NCBI GenBank assembly: GCA_937951625.1
Contig: CALFBP010000049.1
Coordinates: forward strand, 1-64,000
Direction of reading: 5' to 3'
DNA length: 64,000 bases
Origin: an uncultured Thermoguttaceae bacterium
GTDB lineage: Bacteria; Planctomycetota; Planctomycetia; Pirellulales; Thermoguttaceae
The stretch's first letter is position 1, and the number at the start of each line of letters is the position of its first letter. The notes below the pieces were generated by a model. It worked only from the letters and a program-made list of their open reading frames with translations, did no database searches and was not told the origin of the DNA. Below, in pieces: positions 32,327-42,169 of the stretch. Position numbers and translations under genes: made by a program.

Positions 32327-33538
32327 CTAGACGCCCACCCGCTTTAGATCGGTTAGCAATTCCTCGGCGGACTGGTAGCGGTCGGCCCGCTGCTTTTCTA
32401 GCAACTTCAGGACGATCGCCGAAAAGTCCTCAGGCAGGTCGGGGTAAAATTTCGTGGGATCCTCAGGCCGGACGTAACGGATTCGCTCGATGACCTCGGT
32501 CAGCGTGTCGCCGTCGCACGGCGGACGGCCAGCGAGAAGCGCGTAAAGGGTGGCGCCCAAGCTGTACAGATCGGATCGCGTGTCCGCCTCGCGGCTTTGA
32601 TTCGTTCGCTCCGGCGACATGTAGAAGACGTCGCCGGTAAATTCGGCGGATTGCGAGGCCTGGCTTGCGCTGATCCCGTCCACCAATTTTGCAAGGGTGA
32701 AATCCCCGAGTTTCACCAATTGGTCCGAAGTACGAACGAGAATGTTAGAGGGTGTGATATTGCGGTGGACCACACCGTGGTGGTGGGCAGCCTCCAATGC
32801 CCTCGCCATTTGCACCGCGATGCGATACACCTCGCGCCACGGGAGCAATTGGCCCTGCTGAACGCGGCGGACTACGTGGTCGAGGCTCTCGCCCTCCACC
32901 AATTCCATCGAAACCCAACAGTAGGGGCCAGTCTTATCCGCTTCGTGAAGCTGAACGATGTTCGGGTGATCGAGCGAGGCCACGGCCCGCATCAGGGCTA
33001 GGAATCGCTGGGTCTGTTCTTCATCGCGGAGGACCGTCGGCCAAAGCACCTTCAAGGCAACGTTGCGGTAGTGGGCCTCGTCGGCGGCGAGGAAAACCAT
33101 GCCCGTGGCCCCCGTCGCCAGACTGCACCGGAGGGTGAAATGGGCCAGGCGCCGACCCACCAATTCGCTCAACGGCAATACAGGGGCGGCGAGCGGCTGG
33201 GCGGAAGCGAGGCCGGGACTGCGTCGCGAAGGGGGGGCCCCAGCCGGTTCGGCCTCGAAGCGGAGTTCCGTGGTGCCAATCCGGATCGCGTCGCCGGATT
33301 TCAACTCGCAATCGAAGATTCGTTGGCCGTTGACGAACGTCCCCCGCTTACTGCCCACGTCGGTAAGACGTAGGATGCCGTCCACCGTGTCGATGCGGCA
33401 ATGGGCGCGGGAAACCCAGGGGTCCGAGAGTTGGGTCGCCGTGGCGTGACCCCGGCCGATAAGAAATGGTGCGCCTGCGGGGATGACAAAGACCGTTCCC
33501 TGATCGGGCCCGGCGATCACGGTGAGTCGTCCTAGCAT
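32327..33538 (-). CDS. FHA domain plus degenerate Ser/Thr kinase domain (probable pseudokinase)
   Basis: 403 aa. The FHA domain (about 2-95) shows LIGRG, then DPWVSRAHCRI and RGTFVNGQRI, and would bind phosphothreonine peptides. The kinase-like domain (about 127-400) keeps the ATP lysine (VALK, K163) and SMELVEGESLDHVV. The catalytic loop, however, reads VVHRNITPSN, so the catalytic Asp of HRD is Asn260, and the DFG motif reads DFT (279-281). The Gly-rich loop is also eroded (LATGATGMVF). SPERTNQSREADTRSDLYSLG and GRPPC are normal. ATG 33538 chosen for the GAGGGAG site just upstream. It probably acts as a phosphopeptide-binding scaffold rather than an active kinase; residual activity cannot be excluded. 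Confidence 0.88.
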   Translation of the reverse strand: MLGRLTVIAGPDQGTVFVIPAGAPFLIGRGHATATQLSDPWVSRAHCRIDTVDGILRLTDVGSKRGTFVNGQRIFDCELKSGDAIRIGTTELRFEAEPAGAPPSRRSPGLASAQPLAAPVLPLSELVGRRLAHFTLRCSLATGATGMVFLAADEAHYRNVALKVLWPTVLRDEEQTQRFLALMRAVASLDHPNIVQLHEADKTGPYCWVSMELVEGESLDHVVRRVQQGQLLPWREVYRIAVQMARALEAAHHHGVVHRNITPSNILVRTSDQLVKLGDFTLAKLVDGISASQASQSAEFTGDVFYMSPERTNQSREADTRSDLYSLGATLYALLAGRPPCDGDTLTEVIERIRYVRPEDPTKFYPDLPEDFSAIVLKLLEKQRADRYQSAEELLTDLKRVGV

Positions 33539-33762
33539 GAGCTCCCTCGCTGGTCGCTGCAACGCCAAATCGACCTATATTCCAGTATGGATTATTCGTC
33601 GGCCGTGGCAGTCCTGTCAACGTGCTACACCACGGATGGATGTCATAGAACCCCAGGATGTCGGGGACGGGCGGTATATGCGTCTCTGGCCGCATTTTTG
33701 GCGCGGTTTGCACCCGGCGCCGGTTGGTTTTCCAAACCCCTGAAACGTCGCCGACCCCGCGC

Positions 33763-33865: not shown

Positions 33866-34738
33866 ATGTTTCAGGCAGGCGGTAGTATTGGGCGGGTCAT
33901 GCCTTGGATGATGTTGACGGCGGTCTTGCTTACGGCGTGGAGCGCGGGCTGGCTTCTGCCCGCCCAAGCCGCCGAAGAAGAGGCAGCCCCCGCAGCCGCG
34001 GCGGCCCCCGCCGAAGGCGAGGCCGCCTCCGGAACGGAAGAGAGGGAAGCAGCCAAGCAAAAACCGTGGTTGATCTGGTTCATCGAGTCATCCGGTTTGA
34101 TCGGGTTGTTCATCCTACTGCTTTCCATCTATTTCGTGGCCACGGTGTGCCGCTTGTTTTGGGAACTGAGGATGGAAGTCGCCGTTCCGCCCGACCTCGT
34201 GGCTCGCGCCCAGGAACTGCTTCAACAGAAGAACTTCAAGGAGATCTTCACGCTGGTCAAGGAGGACGACTCCCTTTTCGGCCGATTGGTGAGCACGGGA
34301 ATCGGGGAACTACCCAACGGTCTTGCCGAGGCCCGCGACGTGATGGAACGGACGGCCGAAGCCATCAGGGTGGACATGGAGAAACGGATCAGCATCCTGG
34401 CCGTGCTGGGGACCCTGGGGCCGATGATCGGTCTGCTAGGCACGCTCAAGGGGATGATCGCCAGCTTCAGCGTCATCGCTCGAAGCGACGTGCAAATGAA
34501 GGCTAGCGAAGTGGCGGGAGGTATCTCGGAAGCGCTGCTGTTGACGTTCGAAGGCGTGGCCTTGTCGGTGCCGGCAATCTATTTCTTCTCCTTGTTCCGC
34601 AACCGTGTTTCCACGATTTCCACGTCCGCCGCACTGGAAGCCGATCAGTTCGTGCGGCATTTTGCCCATGCCGCGCGGTCCAAGGGGCCGGCCGGGGCCG
34701 CCGCGGCGGCTCCCAAGGCAGCCGCCAAGGCAGAATGA
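33866..34738 (+). CDS. MotA/TolQ/ExbB proton channel family protein
   Basis: 290 aa. An N-terminal signal-like segment (MPWMMLTAVLL... to PAQAA) and an Ala/Glu-rich periplasmic stretch come first. The ExbB core follows with its first membrane helix SGLIGLFILLLSIYFVA. A cytoplasmic loop then leads to helices two and three: LAVLGTLGPMIGLLGTLKGMI and GISEALLLTFEGVALSVPAIYFF. With ExbD partners it would form a proton-conducting motor in the inner membrane. Start chosen at ATG 33866 after GAGGG. It is first in a same-strand run with two exbD-like genes, a membrane protein, a TonB-like/toroid protein and a helical-repeat protein. The extra signal peptide is a feature of the longer ExbB variants. 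Confidence 0.92.
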   Translation: MFQAGGSIGRVMPWMMLTAVLLTAWSAGWLLPAQAAEEEAAPAAAAAPAEGEAASGTEEREAAKQKPWLIWFIESSGLIGLFILLLSIYFVATVCRLFWELRMEVAVPPDLVARAQELLQQKNFKEIFTLVKEDDSLFGRLVSTGIGELPNGLAEARDVMERTAEAIRVDMEKRISILAVLGTLGPMIGLLGTLKGMIASFSVIARSDVQMKASEVAGGISEALLLTFEGVALSVPAIYFFSLFRNRVSTISTSAALEADQFVRHFAHAARSKGPAGAAAAAPKAAAKAE

Positions 34739-34857
34739 GGGAGGAGACGGAGGGTAGGCCAGGCGGGAAGCGGTCCGACGGCGGCACGCAAATTCGCGGC
34801 ACGGCGACGGGAGCCTCGGCGGCGTGGGCCCGCGTTGAGAAAAAATAGGCCAAGCGT

Positions 34858-35319
34858 ATGTCCGAGCTTGAAGGTGGAGAAGGCAAACCGAATCTGACGC
34901 CGATCCTCGACATGGTGTTCCAGCTCATCACCTTCTTCATGCTGGTCATCAATTTCAAGTCGGCGTCGCTGGATCTGTCGCTCCGGCTTCCCGTGGTCGG
35001 AAGCGCCAGGCCCGTCGACACCAAGGGCCAAGAGTCGCTCTTGATCCTCAACATCGACAAGGAGGGCAAGATCAACGTCTATGGCCGGCCCATGCCGGTC
35101 AAGGAGTACATTCAGCGCGAGGCCACCGCCGCCCTGATCGCCGCACAGCGGTCCCAGCCAGAGCTGAAATTCGGCGACGAGCTGCCCACCACGGTGGTCA
35201 TCCGCGCCGATCGGAGCACGCCGTTCAAGCTGCTCAACGGCGTGATTCAAGAGTGCCAGCTCAATGGGTTCCGCAAATTCGCCCTGAAAGCGATGAACAA
35301 AGAGGAAGGCAAAGGATAG
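34858..35319 (+). CDS. ExbD/TolR family protein 1
   Basis: 153-aa inner-membrane protein with one N-terminal membrane helix, NLTPILDMVFQLITFFMLVI. D18 is the conserved membrane Asp thought to carry protons in ExbD, TolR and MotB-type stators. The periplasmic domain (about 45-145) shows TTVVIRADRSTPFKLLNGVI, as in TolR. It follows the ExbB-like gene by 119 bases. Its helix and periplasmic region differ clearly from the second ExbD copy just downstream, so the two are not a recent duplication. Confidence 0.92.
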   Translation: MSELEGGEGKPNLTPILDMVFQLITFFMLVINFKSASLDLSLRLPVVGSARPVDTKGQESLLILNIDKEGKINVYGRPMPVKEYIQREATAALIAAQRSQPELKFGDELPTTVVIRADRSTPFKLLNGVIQECQLNGFRKFALKAMNKEEGKG

Positions 35320-35472
35320 GATGCCGGGCAAGGCGAGGTGGGAAAGTTCCCGGGTGACTCCCTGTCGTTGGAGCCGCTCGGACGAGAACAGGCGGGGATT
35401 CGAACAAGGGGCCAACCTCGGAACACGCCCGGATGGATATGTCTGGTCGCGTGCCTCAGGGAACCAGTAGCC

Positions 35473-35970
35473 GTGAGCCGACGCAGGAAACACAAATCGG
35501 CCGAAGAAGTCGAGCTGAATCTGGCCGCCATGTTGGACATGGCGTTCCAGTTGCTGACCTTCTTCATTTTGACCTTCCGTCCCGCGCCCGTCGAGGGACA
35601 AGTCAATCTGCGACTGCCTCCGCCGATGGCGATTGCCGGTTCGGGTACCCAGAAGGCGGGCGCCGACTTCAACATGAAGGAGCCACCCAAGGCGGCGACC
35701 ACCTTGGTCGTCAGCGTCTTCTCGAACAAAGACGGCTCCGTAGCCCAGTTGGCCGTGGACGAAACACCGATTGGCAACCTCCGCGCCTTGGACGATAAGC
35801 TTCAAACCGTGTTCGCCAACACGGAATACGACCAGGTGATCGTCCAGGTCGGGCAGGAATTGCGGTACGAGGAGCTGATGCGGGTGATCGAGGTCTGCAC
35901 GCGGCAACGGCTTCGTGACGGCTCCAAGCTCTCGAAACTGAGCTTTGTGGAAATGCCGGCCGGGGGCTGA
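35473..35970 (+). CDS. ExbD/TolR family protein 2
   Basis: 165-aa second ExbD. The membrane helix NLAAMLDMAFQLLTFFILTF has the conserved Asp at D22, followed by a periplasmic domain with a longer insert (PPPMAIAGSGTQKAGA) and VIVQVGQELRYEELMRVIEVC. Start chosen at GTG 35473 (VSRRRKHKS), which puts the usual basic cytoplasmic residues directly before the helix; the frame opens further upstream but with no family similarity. Two unlike ExbD subunits with one ExbB are also seen in some Ton/Exb and gliding-motor systems. Confidence 0.9.
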   Translation: MSRRRKHKSAEEVELNLAAMLDMAFQLLTFFILTFRPAPVEGQVNLRLPPPMAIAGSGTQKAGADFNMKEPPKAATTLVVSVFSNKDGSVAQLAVDETPIGNLRALDDKLQTVFANTEYDQVIVQVGQELRYEELMRVIEVCTRQRLRDGSKLSKLSFVEMPAGG

Positions 35971-36102
35971 ACGTCGGTTCGCGGGAGTACGTTTTGCGGC
36001 CTTTGCTTTCTTGCCGCCTCGGACCAGCATCGGCTTGATCCCCGACGGCGAAGGATGGCGCCGAAACCAGGAGGCCCTGGGCAGCATCGAGGAAAGTCCC
36101 CC

Positions 36103-37203
36103 ATGCGACGCCGTTCGCGACTCCCCCCGCCGCAAGGATTCCGCTCCTCTGACTGGACGCGGATCCTCTCGATGCTTCTGTTGTTGGCGGTGCTCTACAT
36201 GTTGATCGTCCGGGCCAGGGATCCGAATACCTGGCGCTGGTTCGCCGACGACGTCAACCCCGACGCCGTTGCCGACGCGGCAGCCGATCCCAATTCCCGA
36301 CCGGAGGCCGCGGCCAAGACCGACCTGCAACCCGGCCCTGAGCTTGTCGCCAAGGGGCCCACCGACGAAGATCCGGACGAGCAGGCCGCTATCCGCGAAG
36401 AGTTCCAGGCGATCACGGACAAGACCCTTCAGATTCAAGAAGAGGAGATGTTTGCGTACAAGCGGGTGGTGCAATGGGTGGTCAACCAGCCAATCGCGCT
36501 CTTGCGGCGGCGGGCCAGAAAGGACCTCACCTTCAACGATTTCATGCTCTCGCCCGACAAGCACCGCGGGGCGTTGGTGGAACTCGTGCTGGACGCCAAG
36601 ATGGTCCGGCCGACGGAGTATCGGGCAACCGACGGGAGCGACCTGTACGAGGTCTGGGGCGTCAGCACGGATTCGGGGGCTTGGCTCTACGCCGCGATCG
36701 CGGTCGGACTGCCCGAGGGGATGCCCATCGCGGCCCGCATCAACGAACGCCTCCGCTTCGTCGGCTATTTCTTCAAACTCCAGGGGTATCACGAGGCGGG
36801 CGCCAAACCCCATGCACCGCCTTTGGCGGCGCCGATGCTGATAGGACGGGCGATCTGGATCCAGACGCCCCCGCCACCACGCGAACATTGGGAGGCCTCG
36901 TGGACCGTGCTGGCCGTGTCGGGTTTCGTGCTGGTGCTTGGACTTCAGTTCCTGTGGCTTGTGATTCGGCCCAAGCGGCGTCGGCCTGGCATCCGGTCCC
37001 TGGACAAACCCAAGCCGCCCGCGGCCTCGCTGGAGGAGTGGTTCGAGAAGGCCGAAGCTGCTGCGGCTCCTCTGGGCGACGAGGCGCCGCCTGGCTCGAA
37101 GCCCGGTGTTGCCGATGCTTCGCCGGGCAGCAACGGCAAGCCGGATCGAAAGGGAGGGCCCTCTGACCATCCGCTTGACGAAGATGGACCGACTGGGGGA
37201 TAA
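36103..37203 (+). CDS. Two-pass membrane protein of unknown function in the ExbB/ExbD/toroid cluster
   Basis: 366 aa, not a family I recognise. The N-terminal membrane helix (WTRILSMLLLLAVLYMLIV) is followed by an acidic Ala/Asp/Pro linker, then a folded region of about 200 residues with alternating strands. A second membrane helix (SWTVLAVSGFVLVLGLQFLWLV) and a disordered Pro/Gly/Ser tail end it. Both ends are likely cytoplasmic, with the folded part outside. ATG 36103 chosen for the GAGGAAAG site upstream. Placement between exbD and the toroid gene suggests a structural part of the same machine, perhaps a link between motor and toroid. Confidence 0.78.
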   Translation: MRRRSRLPPPQGFRSSDWTRILSMLLLLAVLYMLIVRARDPNTWRWFADDVNPDAVADAAADPNSRPEAAAKTDLQPGPELVAKGPTDEDPDEQAAIREEFQAITDKTLQIQEEEMFAYKRVVQWVVNQPIALLRRRARKDLTFNDFMLSPDKHRGALVELVLDAKMVRPTEYRATDGSDLYEVWGVSTDSGAWLYAAIAVGLPEGMPIAARINERLRFVGYFFKLQGYHEAGAKPHAPPLAAPMLIGRAIWIQTPPPPREHWEASWTVLAVSGFVLVLGLQFLWLVIRPKRRRPGIRSLDKPKPPAASLEEWFEKAEAAAAPLGDEAPPGSKPGVADASPGSNGKPDRKGGPSDHPLDEDGPTGG

Positions 37204-37251
37204 TATTTAAGAGTTCATCCCTTCTTTTGATCGTTCGCGGAGTTCTCGGCC

Positions 37252-39024
37252 ATGTCGGCTGCCGATGCGCAAGAGCAGACGGCGTCGGATCGGGCGTCGT
37301 CCACCGCAGTTTCGACCGTCCCTAAACCGGCGCCCGTCGCGGCGGCCCCCGCCCGGCAGGCCGCGCCACGCGGTATTGGGGAGCAAATCAGCGAATGGAT
37401 CCGCGAGGAGGGGGCGTGGTGGGCCGCCAGCTTCGTCTTCCACACGTTGCTGATGGCCGCACTGATGCTCATCCCGCATGAGGTCGGTCGTCCTATCGAG
37501 GGCGAAGCCCCCAGCTTTGAAGAGGCCAGGATCGATCCCGAACAGCAAGCCCCTCAGATCGAACGCTTCGAGTTGGGCGAGCCTCAAGCCACCGAAAACT
37601 TGGAACTTACGACCGAGTCGCTGTCGTTGACCAAGACCCCGGAAATCAAGGCCCCGGAAGCGATCGACCTGACGAGTTCGGGCGGGGGGTTCGCCGGTGG
37701 CTCGTCGAGTGGGCCGCAATTGGGCGGCCTGGGCGGGGGATTTACGATCATGGGCCTGGGCTCCGGTTCCGCCCGCCGCGGCGGTGGTGGGGTGGGCGGC
37801 GGCGCCGGCTTCGGCAATCAACCTGGCGCCGGAGGATCAGGTTTCGGTTTTCGTGGAGCAGCTAAAAAGTCGTTAGGGGCCCACGGAGGAACAAAGAGCG
37901 GGGACCGGGCCGTCGGTGCCGCCCTGAACTGGATTGCCCGGCACCAGGCCCGCGATGGTAGTTGGGGACTGCACGATTACTACCGCCAGTGTAAGGACCC
38001 GAGTTGCTCTGGCCCTGGCACCTATACCAATCGGGCTGCGGCTACCGCGTTGGCGCTTTTGCCCTTTCTGGCGGCGGGCCAAACCCACGAAACCAAAGGG
38101 CCTTATCGCAAAAACATTTACGAGGGACTGTATTTCTTGATGCGCAACCAAGCCCGAAGCGGCGATCTCTCCGGCGCCAGTCCGCCGCAAATGTATGCCC
38201 ACGGCCTAGCCACGATTACACTTTGCGAGGCGTATGGGCTGACGCACAGCAAAATGATCGGCAAGGCGGCCCAGCAGGCCATCTTATTCATTCAATCCGC
38301 TCAAAACCCGAACACCGGGGGCTGGCGTTACACGCCCGGCGAGGCGGGCGATACCTCGGTCGTGGGCTGGCAAGTCATGGCCTTGAAAAGTGCCCAGATG
38401 GCCGGACTCCAGGTCAACAAGGCGACCCTCGACGGGGCTTACCGCTTCCTCAAGTCATGTTCGAAAGGCAACGGCGGTTTATTTTCCTATACTCCCGAAT
38501 CCGGCCCAACGCATACCATGACCGCTGTCGGACTGCTTTGCCTGCAATATGGCGGGATGCGGCGGACCGATCCGCAAATGGCTGAGGGCGTCAGCCTGTT
38601 GCTGCGGAACATGCCAGATTCGGGCGGGCGCAACCTTTACTATTGGTATTACGCGACCCAGGTCTTGCATAACGTGAGTGGGCCGGATTGGGACAACTGG
38701 AATCGCCGCATGCGCAAGGTGCTGGTGGACAGCCAATGCAGGGAAGACAACTGCGCCATGGGGAGTTGGGATCCGGACAAACCCAGCAAGGACGCATGGG
38801 GAGAAGCGGGCGGGCGCTTGATGGTCACGAGTCTGGCGACGCTGACGTTGGAGGTGTATTATCGTTACCTGCCGCTGTACAAGCTGGAGAACACGGAGTC
38901 GGTGAAGTCGCTGGCCGAGACGGGGGCCGCTGCACCGCCCAAGCCGGCCCCGCCGCCGCCCAAGTCGCCGCCGCCGAAGCCGGGCGAGGCCCCCAAATCC
39001 CCGCCGCCCGCCGCCAAGAAGTGA
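37252..39024 (+). CDS. TonB-like anchored alpha/alpha-toroid (squalene/prenyltransferase-repeat) protein
   Basis: 590 aa in four parts. (1) A disordered N-terminus precedes one membrane helix at 56-75, WWAASFVFHTLLMAALMLIP. It contains S60 and H64 in the SxxxH arrangement that TonB uses to engage ExbB/ExbD. (2) A linker of about 140 residues is first acidic, then strongly Gly-rich (FAGGSSS..., GGGGVGGGAG). (3) The toroid domain (about 215-560) has repeats such as ALNWIARHQARDGSWG, GLYFLMRNQARSG, AILFIQSAQNPNTGGWRY and AYRFLKSCSKGNGGLFSY. (4) A Pro/Lys tail (about 560-590) looks like a TonB-type spacer. The DxDD motif of squalene-hopene cyclases is absent, so it is unlikely to be a cyclase. 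ATG 37252 is preceded by GGAG. Confidence 0.85.
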   Translation: MSAADAQEQTASDRASSTAVSTVPKPAPVAAAPARQAAPRGIGEQISEWIREEGAWWAASFVFHTLLMAALMLIPHEVGRPIEGEAPSFEEARIDPEQQAPQIERFELGEPQATENLELTTESLSLTKTPEIKAPEAIDLTSSGGGFAGGSSSGPQLGGLGGGFTIMGLGSGSARRGGGGVGGGAGFGNQPGAGGSGFGFRGAAKKSLGAHGGTKSGDRAVGAALNWIARHQARDGSWGLHDYYRQCKDPSCSGPGTYTNRAAATALALLPFLAAGQTHETKGPYRKNIYEGLYFLMRNQARSGDLSGASPPQMYAHGLATITLCEAYGLTHSKMIGKAAQQAILFIQSAQNPNTGGWRYTPGEAGDTSVVGWQVMALKSAQMAGLQVNKATLDGAYRFLKSCSKGNGGLFSYTPESGPTHTMTAVGLLCLQYGGMRRTDPQMAEGVSLLLRNMPDSGGRNLYYWYYATQVLHNVSGPDWDNWNRRMRKVLVDSQCREDNCAMGSWDPDKPSKDAWGEAGGRLMVTSLATLTLEVYYRYLPLYKLENTESVKSLAETGAAAPPKPAPPPPKSPPPKPGEAPKSPPPAAKK

Positions 39025-39220
39025 TCCGTTAGTCCCACGCGGCGGTCCCGCATTCTCAACTTCAGGAACCGCGTCCAAAGCGTTAGTGTGCCGCCGCTTG
39101 ACCAACGTTGTGCGAGACGTTATTTCTCTCGTGGGGGTCCCCTGCCGAGGGCAGCAGCCGAGTCGGGGTGTCCCGGCAGATCCGCCCCATCACGCCATCT
39201 TCGTACGACAGGCCATGGTG

Positions 39221-42169
39221 ATGAAAACGTTGATTGCGTTGTTTTTCGGTTTGGCGTGCTTGTTTTTTTCCGCCGACGGTGTCACGGCCGCCGAAATCCG
39301 GCCGCTGGAATTCCTCCACGCGCTTCAGGAAAAAGGCTACCACGACATCGCCGTGGAATACCTGCACAGGCTCAAGCAGCAGCCGTTGGAGCCTGAGGTC
39401 GCCGCGGTCTGGGACTTGGAGATGTCGAAGAGTTTGCGGGGCGCGGCCAACCGGGCCTTCAATCCCAAGGACTTCGAGGAACAAATGGCCGAGGCCCAAA
39501 AGCACCTCGATAAGTTCCTTCAGGAAAATCCCACCCACCCGGAGGCCGTCAACGCCTTGGTTTCGGCGGGGGCCTTTTTGATCGACCGGGCGTTGCAGCA
39601 CCTTCGAGCGGGGCAGGCGGCGACGGACGCGGCGGAGAAAGCCCGACACATGGCCGAGGCCCGCAAGGCCCTCGACAATGCCCGGCCCCGTTTGAAGCAA
39701 GCGGTCGAAACCCTCCAGAAGCGGTTGGCCGCCGCTCCCCCGGCTGAGGCCAAGCCAAAGCGGAGCGGACGCCCCGACTACGAGGCCAAGGCGGCTATCC
39801 GGGAGCGGGCGTATCTGGAACAAAGCCTGCTCGATGCCCGCTTTCAGGCCGCCATGGCCGACTATTACTCAGCCCAGACCTACGAAGAGGCCAGTCAAGC
39901 CGCCGCCCGCAAGGCCCTCCTCGCCAGCGCGGCCAAGCAACTGGACGACATTTATCAAGCCAATCGGGTGACGGCGTCGGGCCAAGTGAACGTGGTCGGC
40001 CTCTACGCCCACATGTGGCACGGCAAGATCGCTGATGAATTAGGCGACACCCAGTTGGCCCAGGACATCTACGAGGAAGTCCTGGCCAACGATCCGGGCC
40101 CCAATCCCAACACTGCCGACAGGGTGCTCGACCCGCTCTTCGCCCAAGTTCAGCAATTCTATTTGGCCATCATCGCCCGCAAGGATGTCGATCGCTTTCT
40201 CGAAGAGGCCGTTGCCTGGTTGAAAGACTACAGCCGGAAGTCACGGCGTTACGAAGGCTATCAGGGGATCGCTTTGGAGGTGGCCAAGGCCCGGCTGGAC
40301 CAGGCCGCCAAGGCGACCGGGGCGACAAAGAACAAGCTCACCGCCGAGGCCTTGGCCCTGCTCAACGACATGGTCAACGTGCCCAGCCCCTACCAGCAAG
40401 AGGCCTGGACCTTGCGAAAGAAGTACGCCAAGGTGGACGCAAGCGAGCTGAAGGACGCCAAGACCTTCGAGGAGGCGGCGGCGATGGGTCAGGCCGCCGC
40501 CTCGTTGGGTCAATGGACGGAGGCCGTGGCCGCCTATCAGCGGGCCCTGGAAATGGCCGCCGAGGCCAAGACCAAGGACCCCAAGCGCGTCGCCGAATTG
40601 CGCCAGGCATTGGCGAACGCCAAGGTGATGGCTGCCGGAAAGCTTTACGAAGAGAACAAGATGCAAGAGTGCCTGGCCGAGGTGGAGAAGATCATTCAAG
40701 AGGACAAGACGGCCCCGGCGGCCGAGACGGCGGCCTCGTTGGGCGTGGAGGCGGCGCTGGCCATGGTCGTTTCGGCGGTCGATGCGCAGCAGCGGCAGGC
40801 GGCGCTGGGGCGGCTTGAAGCATTCTGCAAAATGGCCGAGCAGACCTGGCCTGGCCGCCCCCCCGCCGACGACGCCCGCATGGCCCTCGCCCAGGTCAAA
40901 CTCGCCTCCGGCCAGGTGAAGGAGGCCCTGGATGTCTTCGAAAAGATCAATCCCAAGTCCGAGCGCTACCCGCTTGCCCGTTACCTCGCCGCCCGAACCT
41001 ACTGGGTCCTGTACTCCGACGGCAAGCGACAGGGCGCCAATCCCGACAAACTAGCGGCGGATCGGGCGGAGGCCGTGAAGCGGGCGGTCGAGGCGTTAGA
41101 GCGCTTCCGCAAAGCCGCTGAGCCGAATCGGCCCCTCTCGCCGCAGCATGTGGAAAGCCAATTGTTGGTGGCCTTGATCCATCTGGAGGCCAAGGAGTTC
41201 AAGGAAGCCTATGAACTGCTTCGTCCGCTGATCGACCAGATCAAGGCCGCCAAGCCGCAGGCTTTGGATGAGGCGACCGTGCGAATCTCTCGCGCCGCGC
41301 TCCAGGCGGCGCTGGGCCTTGGCGACGTGGCTGGCGCCACGGAAGTCGGCATGTTGCTGACCGATCTCGGGGCCGATCAGCAAGGGGTGAACGCCGTGCT
41401 CGTGGATTTCGCCCGGGCGCTGGACGAACAACGCAAGGCCGACGAAGCCGAGGCGACGCGGGCCAACGCCTCCGGCGACGCCAAGGCGGCTGAAACCGCC
41501 AATGCCAAGCTCAAAGCCACGCAGACCATGATCGGCAACGTGCTCAAGAAACTCGCGGCCCGCAAGGAGCACTCCGTGTTCGGATTGATCGCCTTGGGCG
41601 ACTTGTGCGTGAACGTGGGCCTTGCGGCCGAGGCCACGCAGCTTTTCCAGCGGGTGCTGGACACGCCCGACGTGGACAAGCGTGCCGCGACCCGCGCCCG
41701 TGCCCAACTGATCGGACTTCTGCGCACCGCCGGCAAGTTCCAGGAAGCGATCGACCAGGCCCGCCAATTGGCCGCCGACAATCCGCGCTCGCTCGAACCG
41801 CAGTTGGAGCTGGGCCGCTGCCTCCAGGCCAGGGCCGAGCAGGACCCCACCACCTACGACGAAGCCATTGCCCAGTGGACGCGGATCCGCAACTTCCTCC
41901 AAGCGATGCGCAAGAAACCGCCGGAATACTACGAAGTGATCTACAACGCCGCCTGGTGCCTTTATGCCCAAGCCTACCAGACTCAGGAGAAGATACCGGA
42001 ACGCTGCACTCAAGCGATCCAGTTGCTCAAGTCGGCGTTGGTGCTGAATGAGAAACTGAGCGGGCCCGACATGGTCGAAAAATATAAAGTCCTGATGGAC
42101 ACGATCCAGAATTTCCAGCAAGAGTCGGGCAGCGCCGCGTCGCCCGCCCCCGTGGCGGAAAGGAAGTAA
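39221..42169 (+). CDS. Exported helical (TPR-like) repeat protein, last gene of the ExbB/toroid cluster
   Basis: 982 aa with a clear signal peptide (MKTLIALFFGLACLFFSADG...). The mature part is almost wholly helical, Ala/Lys/Glu/Gln-rich, with repeated TPR-like pairs such as DFEEQMAEAQKHLDKFLQE, AQDIYEEVLANDPGPNPNT and ATQLFQRVLDTPDVDKRAATRA. No enzyme motif. ATG 39221 and ATG 39215 are both possible; 39221 gives the better signal sequence. It follows the toroid gene by about 200 bases on the same strand. Periplasmic TPR proteins commonly organise Ton/Exb or Tol/Pal type assemblies, so it may be the scaffold of this system. Confidence 0.85.
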   Translation: MKTLIALFFGLACLFFSADGVTAAEIRPLEFLHALQEKGYHDIAVEYLHRLKQQPLEPEVAAVWDLEMSKSLRGAANRAFNPKDFEEQMAEAQKHLDKFLQENPTHPEAVNALVSAGAFLIDRALQHLRAGQAATDAAEKARHMAEARKALDNARPRLKQAVETLQKRLAAAPPAEAKPKRSGRPDYEAKAAIRERAYLEQSLLDARFQAAMADYYSAQTYEEASQAAARKALLASAAKQLDDIYQANRVTASGQVNVVGLYAHMWHGKIADELGDTQLAQDIYEEVLANDPGPNPNTADRVLDPLFAQVQQFYLAIIARKDVDRFLEEAVAWLKDYSRKSRRYEGYQGIALEVAKARLDQAAKATGATKNKLTAEALALLNDMVNVPSPYQQEAWTLRKKYAKVDASELKDAKTFEEAAAMGQAAASLGQWTEAVAAYQRALEMAAEAKTKDPKRVAELRQALANAKVMAAGKLYEENKMQECLAEVEKIIQEDKTAPAAETAASLGVEAALAMVVSAVDAQQRQAALGRLEAFCKMAEQTWPGRPPADDARMALAQVKLASGQVKEALDVFEKINPKSERYPLARYLAARTYWVLYSDGKRQGANPDKLAADRAEAVKRAVEALERFRKAAEPNRPLSPQHVESQLLVALIHLEAKEFKEAYELLRPLIDQIKAAKPQALDEATVRISRAALQAALGLGDVAGATEVGMLLTDLGADQQGVNAVLVDFARALDEQRKADEAEATRANASGDAKAAETANAKLKATQTMIGNVLKKLAARKEHSVFGLIALGDLCVNVGLAAEATQLFQRVLDTPDVDKRAATRARAQLIGLLRTAGKFQEAIDQARQLAADNPRSLEPQLELGRCLQARAEQDPTTYDEAIAQWTRIRNFLQAMRKKPPEYYEVIYNAAWCLYAQAYQTQEKIPERCTQAIQLLKSALVLNEKLSGPDMVEKYKVLMDTIQNFQQESGSAASPAPVAERK

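Follow-up and report, generated by a model that had tools for sequence, protein, structure and literature searches.

A six-gene ExbB/ExbD locus of Planctomycetota with a toroid-ended protein as putative TonB-like transducer

ExbB/ExbD motors drive TonB. The membrane helix of TonB or TolA binds ExbB or TolQ via the SHLS motif, Ser-x3-His-x6-Leu-x3-Ser, whose Leu and final Ser vary more than the rest in the Ton system as well, and cryo-electron microscopy structures from E. coli revealed that Ser16 and His20 of TonB contact Ser34 and Trp38 of ExbB (PMC12215075, in part). In 2025, vWA force transducers were published, in which an SHLS-type anchor carries a foreign C-terminal domain; they occur in the Planctomycetes-Verrucomicrobia-Chlamydiae (PVC) group, and their genes adjoin a tolQ-like gene, two unlike tolR-like genes and a TPR gene (PMC12204202, in part). 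Here we describe a six-gene locus that encodes an ExbB/ExbD motor together with a membrane-anchored alpha/alpha-toroid protein. It lies in a stretch of 64,000 nucleotides, called the window below (positions 1-64,000 of contig CALFBP010000049.1, assembly GCA_937951625.1), from an uncultured Thermoguttaceae bacterium (Planctomycetota; Pirellulales). The toroid protein is probably a TonB-like transducer driven by the proton-motive force, with a new C-terminal domain, in a trans-envelope machine made by the six genes.

The six genes occupy positions 33866-42169 of the + strand. A sequence-only reading had given them in this order, and coordinates of the open reading frames and Pfam matches bear it out, the two-pass protein being without a family.

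33866..34738, + strand: channel subunit of the ExbB/TolQ type; signal-like helix at the N-terminus, periplasmic extension; ATG start at 33866
34858..35319, + strand: ExbD 1; transmembrane (TM) helix with the conserved Asp, placed by alignment with ExbD: NLTPILDMVFQL
35473..35970, + strand: ExbD 2; TM helix with the Asp, placed by eye: NLAAMLDMAFQL
36055..37203, + strand: two-pass membrane protein; OB-like beta-barrel between two helices in the AlphaFold2 (AF2) model
37252..39024, + strand: membrane-anchored alpha/alpha-toroid protein of 590 amino acids, the proposed TonB-like transducer
39221..42169, + strand: exported TPR protein of 982 amino acids from the ATG at 39221; signal-like start by eye

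The length that the same reading gave for the TPR scaffold also holds from this ATG. From 5' to 3', the listed open frames are separated by 119, 18, 84, 48 and 61 bases; the most likely start of ExbD2 is the GTG at 35473, and its open frame reaches back to 35338. The motor subunits score far above the curated Pfam cut-offs: ExbB has a MotA_ExbB domain (E 7e-24; 84.4 bits vs 22.9), and the two ExbDs have ExbD domains (E 4e-19 and 2e-13; 69.3 and 51.1 bits vs 25.4). The toroid protein matches SQHop_cyclase_C (E 5e-8), above the family cut-off, and the last gene matches TPR models. In an alignment with 5sv0, which we take to be E. coli ExbB, the window ExbB is identical at the pore residues P141, T148, T181 and P190. 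The roles of these residues in E. coli are described in PMC12215075 (in part).

The toroid protein can be divided into four parts.

37429..37443, + strand: codons of the Ser-x3-His motif, S60-F-V-F-H64, in the anchor helix; match to the SHLS motif of TonB/TolA
37498..37863, + strand: linker, residues 83-204, with 25% Gly and 7% Pro
37558..37626, + strand: conserved stretch after the TM helix, residues 103-125, IERFELG...LELTTESL; candidate ExbD-binding "motor box"
37864..38886, + strand: toroid domain, about residues 205-545, from the AF2 model

Its membrane helix, WWAASFVFHTLLMAALML, agrees with SHLS at Ser, at His and at Leu in position +7 from the His. Judged by its residues, the anchor is a bearer of the TonB/TolA motor-docking signature. 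From 23 toroid frames we aligned 18 divergent toroids that have an anchor, omitting five that were unanchored, cut or of another build. S60 and H64 do not vary among the 18, and the only other invariant positions before the toroid domain are M1 and one Gly of the linker. We then counted the motif more widely, calling membrane helices by a simple hydropathy scan; the first residue could be S or A and the second H or N, close to any helix predicted ahead of the toroid. After removal of copies with identical last 250 residues, 112 distinct toroids were left, and 98 of them have an anchor with S/A-x3-H/N (87 SH, 7 SN and 4 AH), although these counts are not independent since the toroids share ancestry. 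Eight of the remainder are cut at the end of their stretch, and six have another N-terminal helix, free of the motif and in several cases signal-like. Leu is found at +7 in 77 of the 98 motif-bearing toroids. In 304 control proteins from the same stretches, each with exactly one helix, which is N-terminal, SxxxH was found in 3 and SxxxN in 4; the control count was limited to these two patterns. In a set of toroids chosen for adjacency to motor genes, S/A-x3-H lies in a membrane helix in 19 of 20 (18 SH, 1 AH). The ExFELG...LDPTEL-like stretch that follows the helix is conserved in the clade of the window toroid. As a separate observation, Asn replaces the motor-docking His in the toroid anchors of stretches L141, L149, L154, L158, L161, L165 and L186.

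Neither a TonB_C domain (Pfam) nor a C-terminal vWA domain is found in the window toroid protein; the toroid stands in that place. AF2 predicted residues 195-560 with high confidence (predicted local distance difference test, pLDDT, 92.9; predicted template modelling score, pTM, 0.91). The closest solved folds are squalene-hopene cyclases (8pak, Z 26.4, root mean square deviation 3.0 over 286 residues, 16% identity), followed by sugar 2-epimerases and GH76-like enzymes. DxDD is the catalytic motif of class II terpene cyclases. This string is present in 4 of 105 toroid domains (the set left after dropping partial domains and L191) and missing from the window toroid, and a class II terpene cyclase was therefore rejected as an identity for it.

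The arrangement of the locus recurs. The toroid search had matches in 58 of 60 genomes, that is, the window's own and 59 relatives. Twenty stretches were examined, picked for toroid matches plus the other motor contig of the window's genome. The order is not due to chance, because five of these 20 stretches (L045, L047, L048, L052 and L054) repeat ExbB-ExbD-ExbD-two-pass-toroid. The TPR gene is next after the toroid in L047, L048, L052 and L054, and the contig of L045 ends before that point; ExbD1-like and ExbD2-like genes number two each in L048. As for the rest, L043, from the window's genome, has ExbB-ExbD-toroid, L056 has toroid-TPR only, and 13 have a toroid without these partners. The same gene order is also seen in other planctomycete families. 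Outside the operon, the adjoining window genes (PGK, FHA-kinase, UvrA) were compared with 13 operon stretches, and UvrA in L048 was the sole match, a weak comparison as some of the 13 have little flank.

Linkage between motor and toroid was also found in a sample collected blind to the anchor, by scanning named genomes with two toroid-domain patterns and taking the best 80 of at least 582 relatives. At 20 of these 80 loci, motor genes share the strand of the toroid and are no more than 4.5 kb from it. Six of the 20 have ExbB-ExbD-ExbD-two-pass-toroid, 13 have ExbB-ExbD-toroid, where the toroid protein is larger, and the last, L204, has an ExbD and a second toroid downstream of the matched toroid; L133, one of the six, is the same contig as L052. 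Among the stretches as a whole, L132 is nearly identical to L047, and L178 overlaps L060. In a quick tree of the 105 toroid domains, made without bootstraps and with 'orphan' rows that include ones with too short a flank, motor-adjacent toroids fall in several separate clades, and by the starred branches each of the two motor arrangements must have changed at least five times. Furthermore, among the 150 toroid and 150 ExbD matches listed from the same 60 genomes, an ExbD gene and a toroid share a strand and lie no more than 6 kb apart in at least 26 cases, from at least 25 genomes, where roughly 0.5 would be expected by chance. Among the matches listed, ExbD is upstream in 26 of 26 such pairs, and opposite-strand pairs number 0. 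Twenty of the 26 were examined: ExbD is followed by the toroid in all, and ExbB is present too in 18, while the two without it, L219 and L230, sit at the start of a contig.

The genome context fits this picture. The window genome is 97.9% complete and contains 3 ExbD and 7 MotA_ExbB matches. Searches for TonB_C (PF03544) and for TonB-dependent barrels (PF00593), the two families covered, found none of either in it, and an ordinary TonB system with TonB encoded elsewhere was thus rejected for this genome. In the 60 genomes, its own included, ExbD is present in 59 and TonB_C in 16. With ExbD kept in nearly all of them and TonB_C in so few, the question arises of what these motors drive, and a toroid transducer would be a concrete solution.

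What we observed are the order of the genes, the anchor motif, the linkage and the predicted fold; from these we infer docking, movement, partner and purpose as follows. ExbB and the two ExbDs would form a motor run by the proton-motive force. The toroid protein would take the role of TonB/TolA, its single membrane helix docking on ExbB through Ser-x3-His, and the ExbDs may be bound by the conserved residues that follow this helix. The Gly-rich linker would bear the alpha/alpha-toroid where TonB has its C-terminal domain. With proton flow the toroid might move and grip or release a periplasmic or outer-membrane partner; the simplest candidate for this partner is the co-encoded TPR protein, and the two-pass OB protein may serve the motor as an adaptor in the membrane. 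The sequence-only reading had likewise proposed the toroid as the moving arm of the motor. The Ser-x3-His anchor, the recurrent linkage and a genome with no TonB_C and no PF00593 barrel speak for that proposal, and its contact, movement and target are what we still infer.

Several observations weigh against a toroid transducer, and some of them favour other explanations. At the level of the anchor, the last Ser of SHLS is missing: the window toroid has Pro at His+11, and Ser is outside the five commonest residues at this position among the 98 motif-bearing toroids. The toroid of L230, adjacent to a motor, has no motif, its open frame being short and without a helix. On the side of ExbB, the Ser matching E. 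coli Ser34 is retained in 41 of 42 rows, but the equivalent of Trp38 is Val, Ile, Leu or another residue in 42 of 42 and never Trp; the 42 rows may include duplicate copies, and the register of TM1 to E. coli is fixed solely by the Ser and spacing. Because the Trp is missing from all rows though the Ser is retained, the predicted docking site on ExbB is not identical to that of E. coli.

At the level of loci, the sequence-only reading would have been undermined if the toroid were usually found away from exbB/exbD, and the outcome is mixed. Beside the 20 loci with a motor nearby, 22 of the 80 are too short to judge, and 38 of the 58 judged have no motor nearby: at 31 of the 80 no motor gene lies within 4.5 kb to either side, and at 7 none lies in the upstream flank that was covered. 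The ExbB-ExbD-ExbD-two-pass cassette, in turn, often occurs without a toroid. A search for the two-pass family in 392 Planctomycetota genomes matched 48 at E 1e-6, the window's genome included; in the 40 two-pass stretches examined, ExbB or ExbD was present in 17, and only 2 of these also have a clear toroid. These two are L097, which repeats the order of all six genes, and L125, in which the toroid comes first; the toroid match of L105 is weak and lies on the opposite strand. Toroid-free motor cassettes are found in L093-L096, L098, L099 and L107. In L108, L109, L111, L112, L114-L116 and L126, a TPR protein matching the window TPR profile, which may match other TPR proteins through general likeness, precedes ExbB-ExbD, with the two-pass gene divergent. 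Such separate occurrences of toroid and motor are what would be expected if the toroid were merely co-expressed with the motor, Ser-x3-His serving helix packing and the true transducer being encoded elsewhere. We regard this as very unlikely, in view of the uniform strand and order of the close ExbD-toroid pairs, of a motif that nearly all toroid anchors have and few controls show, and of a genome without TonB_C.

The same counts raise the question of whether the two-pass OB protein, which often stays with the motor when the toroid does not, is itself the moving arm. This seems extremely improbable to us: SxxxH is present in the toroid protein but was found in no TM helix of the two-pass proteins of 11 stretches scanned, nor, by eye, in that of the window. 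The two-pass protein has no Pfam family and no sequence match in the PDB at E 10, and its sole NCBIfam match, YajC, is sub-threshold (E 0.33). The AF2 model (mean pLDDT 78) places an OB-like beta-barrel at residues 174-269, between helices 31-54 and 278-304. Fold matches are weak (best Foldseek E 4e-3, best Z 8.3), and the predicted barrel is a lead only.

The toroid domain itself supplies the main rival, which is that the toroid is an enzyme, for example on a periplasmic glycan or lipid, whose position or activity the motor switches, with no pull on a partner. Nineteen residues, many of them aromatic or charged and including Y315, E326, D367, W373, Y466 and R538, are invariant across the 105 toroids; therefore a conserved pocket or interface is likely in the domain, and an enzyme is possible. 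Nearly all of the best fold matches, those given above among them, bear the names of enzymes. In addition, some toroids do not have a TonB-like anchor, so that the toroid domain also works without one. On the other hand, a common fold does not show function, no substrate gene was identified, and the scarcity of DxDD, absent from the window toroid, speaks against an enzyme. On balance we consider an enzyme of this kind unlikely. Among the unanchored toroids, that of L044:8447-11080 has a lipobox-like end by eye, and those of L051:9309-10691 and L137:4749-6320 have a signal-like helix; the three look exported but free or lipid-anchored.

If the toroid protein is indeed a transducer, its role can be tested by single-residue mutants, and the TonB/TolA anchor would be a module that evolution has fitted with different working ends (vWA, toroid). 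A broader proposal, which we put forward tentatively and hold to be somewhat doubtful, is that toroid-ended TonB-anchored proteins are the main transducer class of Planctomycetota, with several per genome, powered by the motors of ExbBD-toroid operons (in cis) as well as by shared ones (in trans), and that they largely replace TonB; the invariant pocket would then grip or catalyse, making the toroid an enzyme-like moving ring. In the open-access PMC literature, covered by titles and the starts of abstracts and with most subscription papers outside its scope, no description of a toroid or transducer system of this kind was found. The locus suggests that planctomycetes power the envelope with an arm not described before.

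Some further features were noted. A second system type, ExbB-ExbD-toroid with a Ser-x3-His helix before the toroid, is seen in the window's own genome (L043:1442-5421, contig C63) and in L212-L231, the 20 stretches examined for ExbD-toroid pairs; all three genes are present in 18 of them, and the toroid proteins are mostly below 800 amino acids. L143:2845-6339 encodes a large toroid protein of the ExbB-ExbD-toroid type, 1164 amino acids long, with a PD40 (WD40-like propeller) match before the Ser-x3-His helix and the toroid. In the window, an FHA-domain Ser/Thr kinase-like gene (by eye) at 32327-33568 on the - strand is divergent from the operon. Scans for promoter-like sequences (2 found vs 1.5 in shuffles) and terminator-like sequences (14 vs 10.4) were uninformative.

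Compared with known systems, the locus shares with TonB-ExbBD and TolA-TolQR an ExbB/ExbD motor with the conserved Pro/Thr and Asp residues, and with TonB/TolA a transducer layout of a single helix with Ser-x3-His and Leu at +7, a linker and a periplasmic C-terminal domain. In contrast to TonB and TolA, the window toroid protein does not have their C-terminal domain but a Gly-rich linker and an alpha/alpha-toroid; the set has two unlike ExbDs, a two-pass OB protein and a TPR partner; Trp38 of ExbB is replaced; and the genome is without PF00593 barrels. Squalene-hopene cyclases resemble the window toroid in its predicted alpha/alpha-toroid fold and SQHop_cyclase_C match, whereas the toroid is without DxDD, sits on a TonB-like anchor and is encoded beside a motor. 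One of the three SxxxH controls is a vWA protein, L054:16506-17561, whose VWA_2 match (24.3 bits) is below the 27-bit cut-off; it looks like a member of the published vWA transducer class. It is encoded on the other strand, roughly 2.5 kb away from where ExbB ends the toroid-motor operon of L054, so that the two transducer classes would stand side by side. The words 'toroid', 'squalene' and 'prenyltransferase' are absent from the main text of PMC12204202, the part of that report considered here. The vWA transducers are the nearest published case, with the same anchor type and the same neighbours (tolQ, two tolR, TPR) as the window set; they differ in the C-terminal domain, which is vWA in theirs and a toroid in the window protein.

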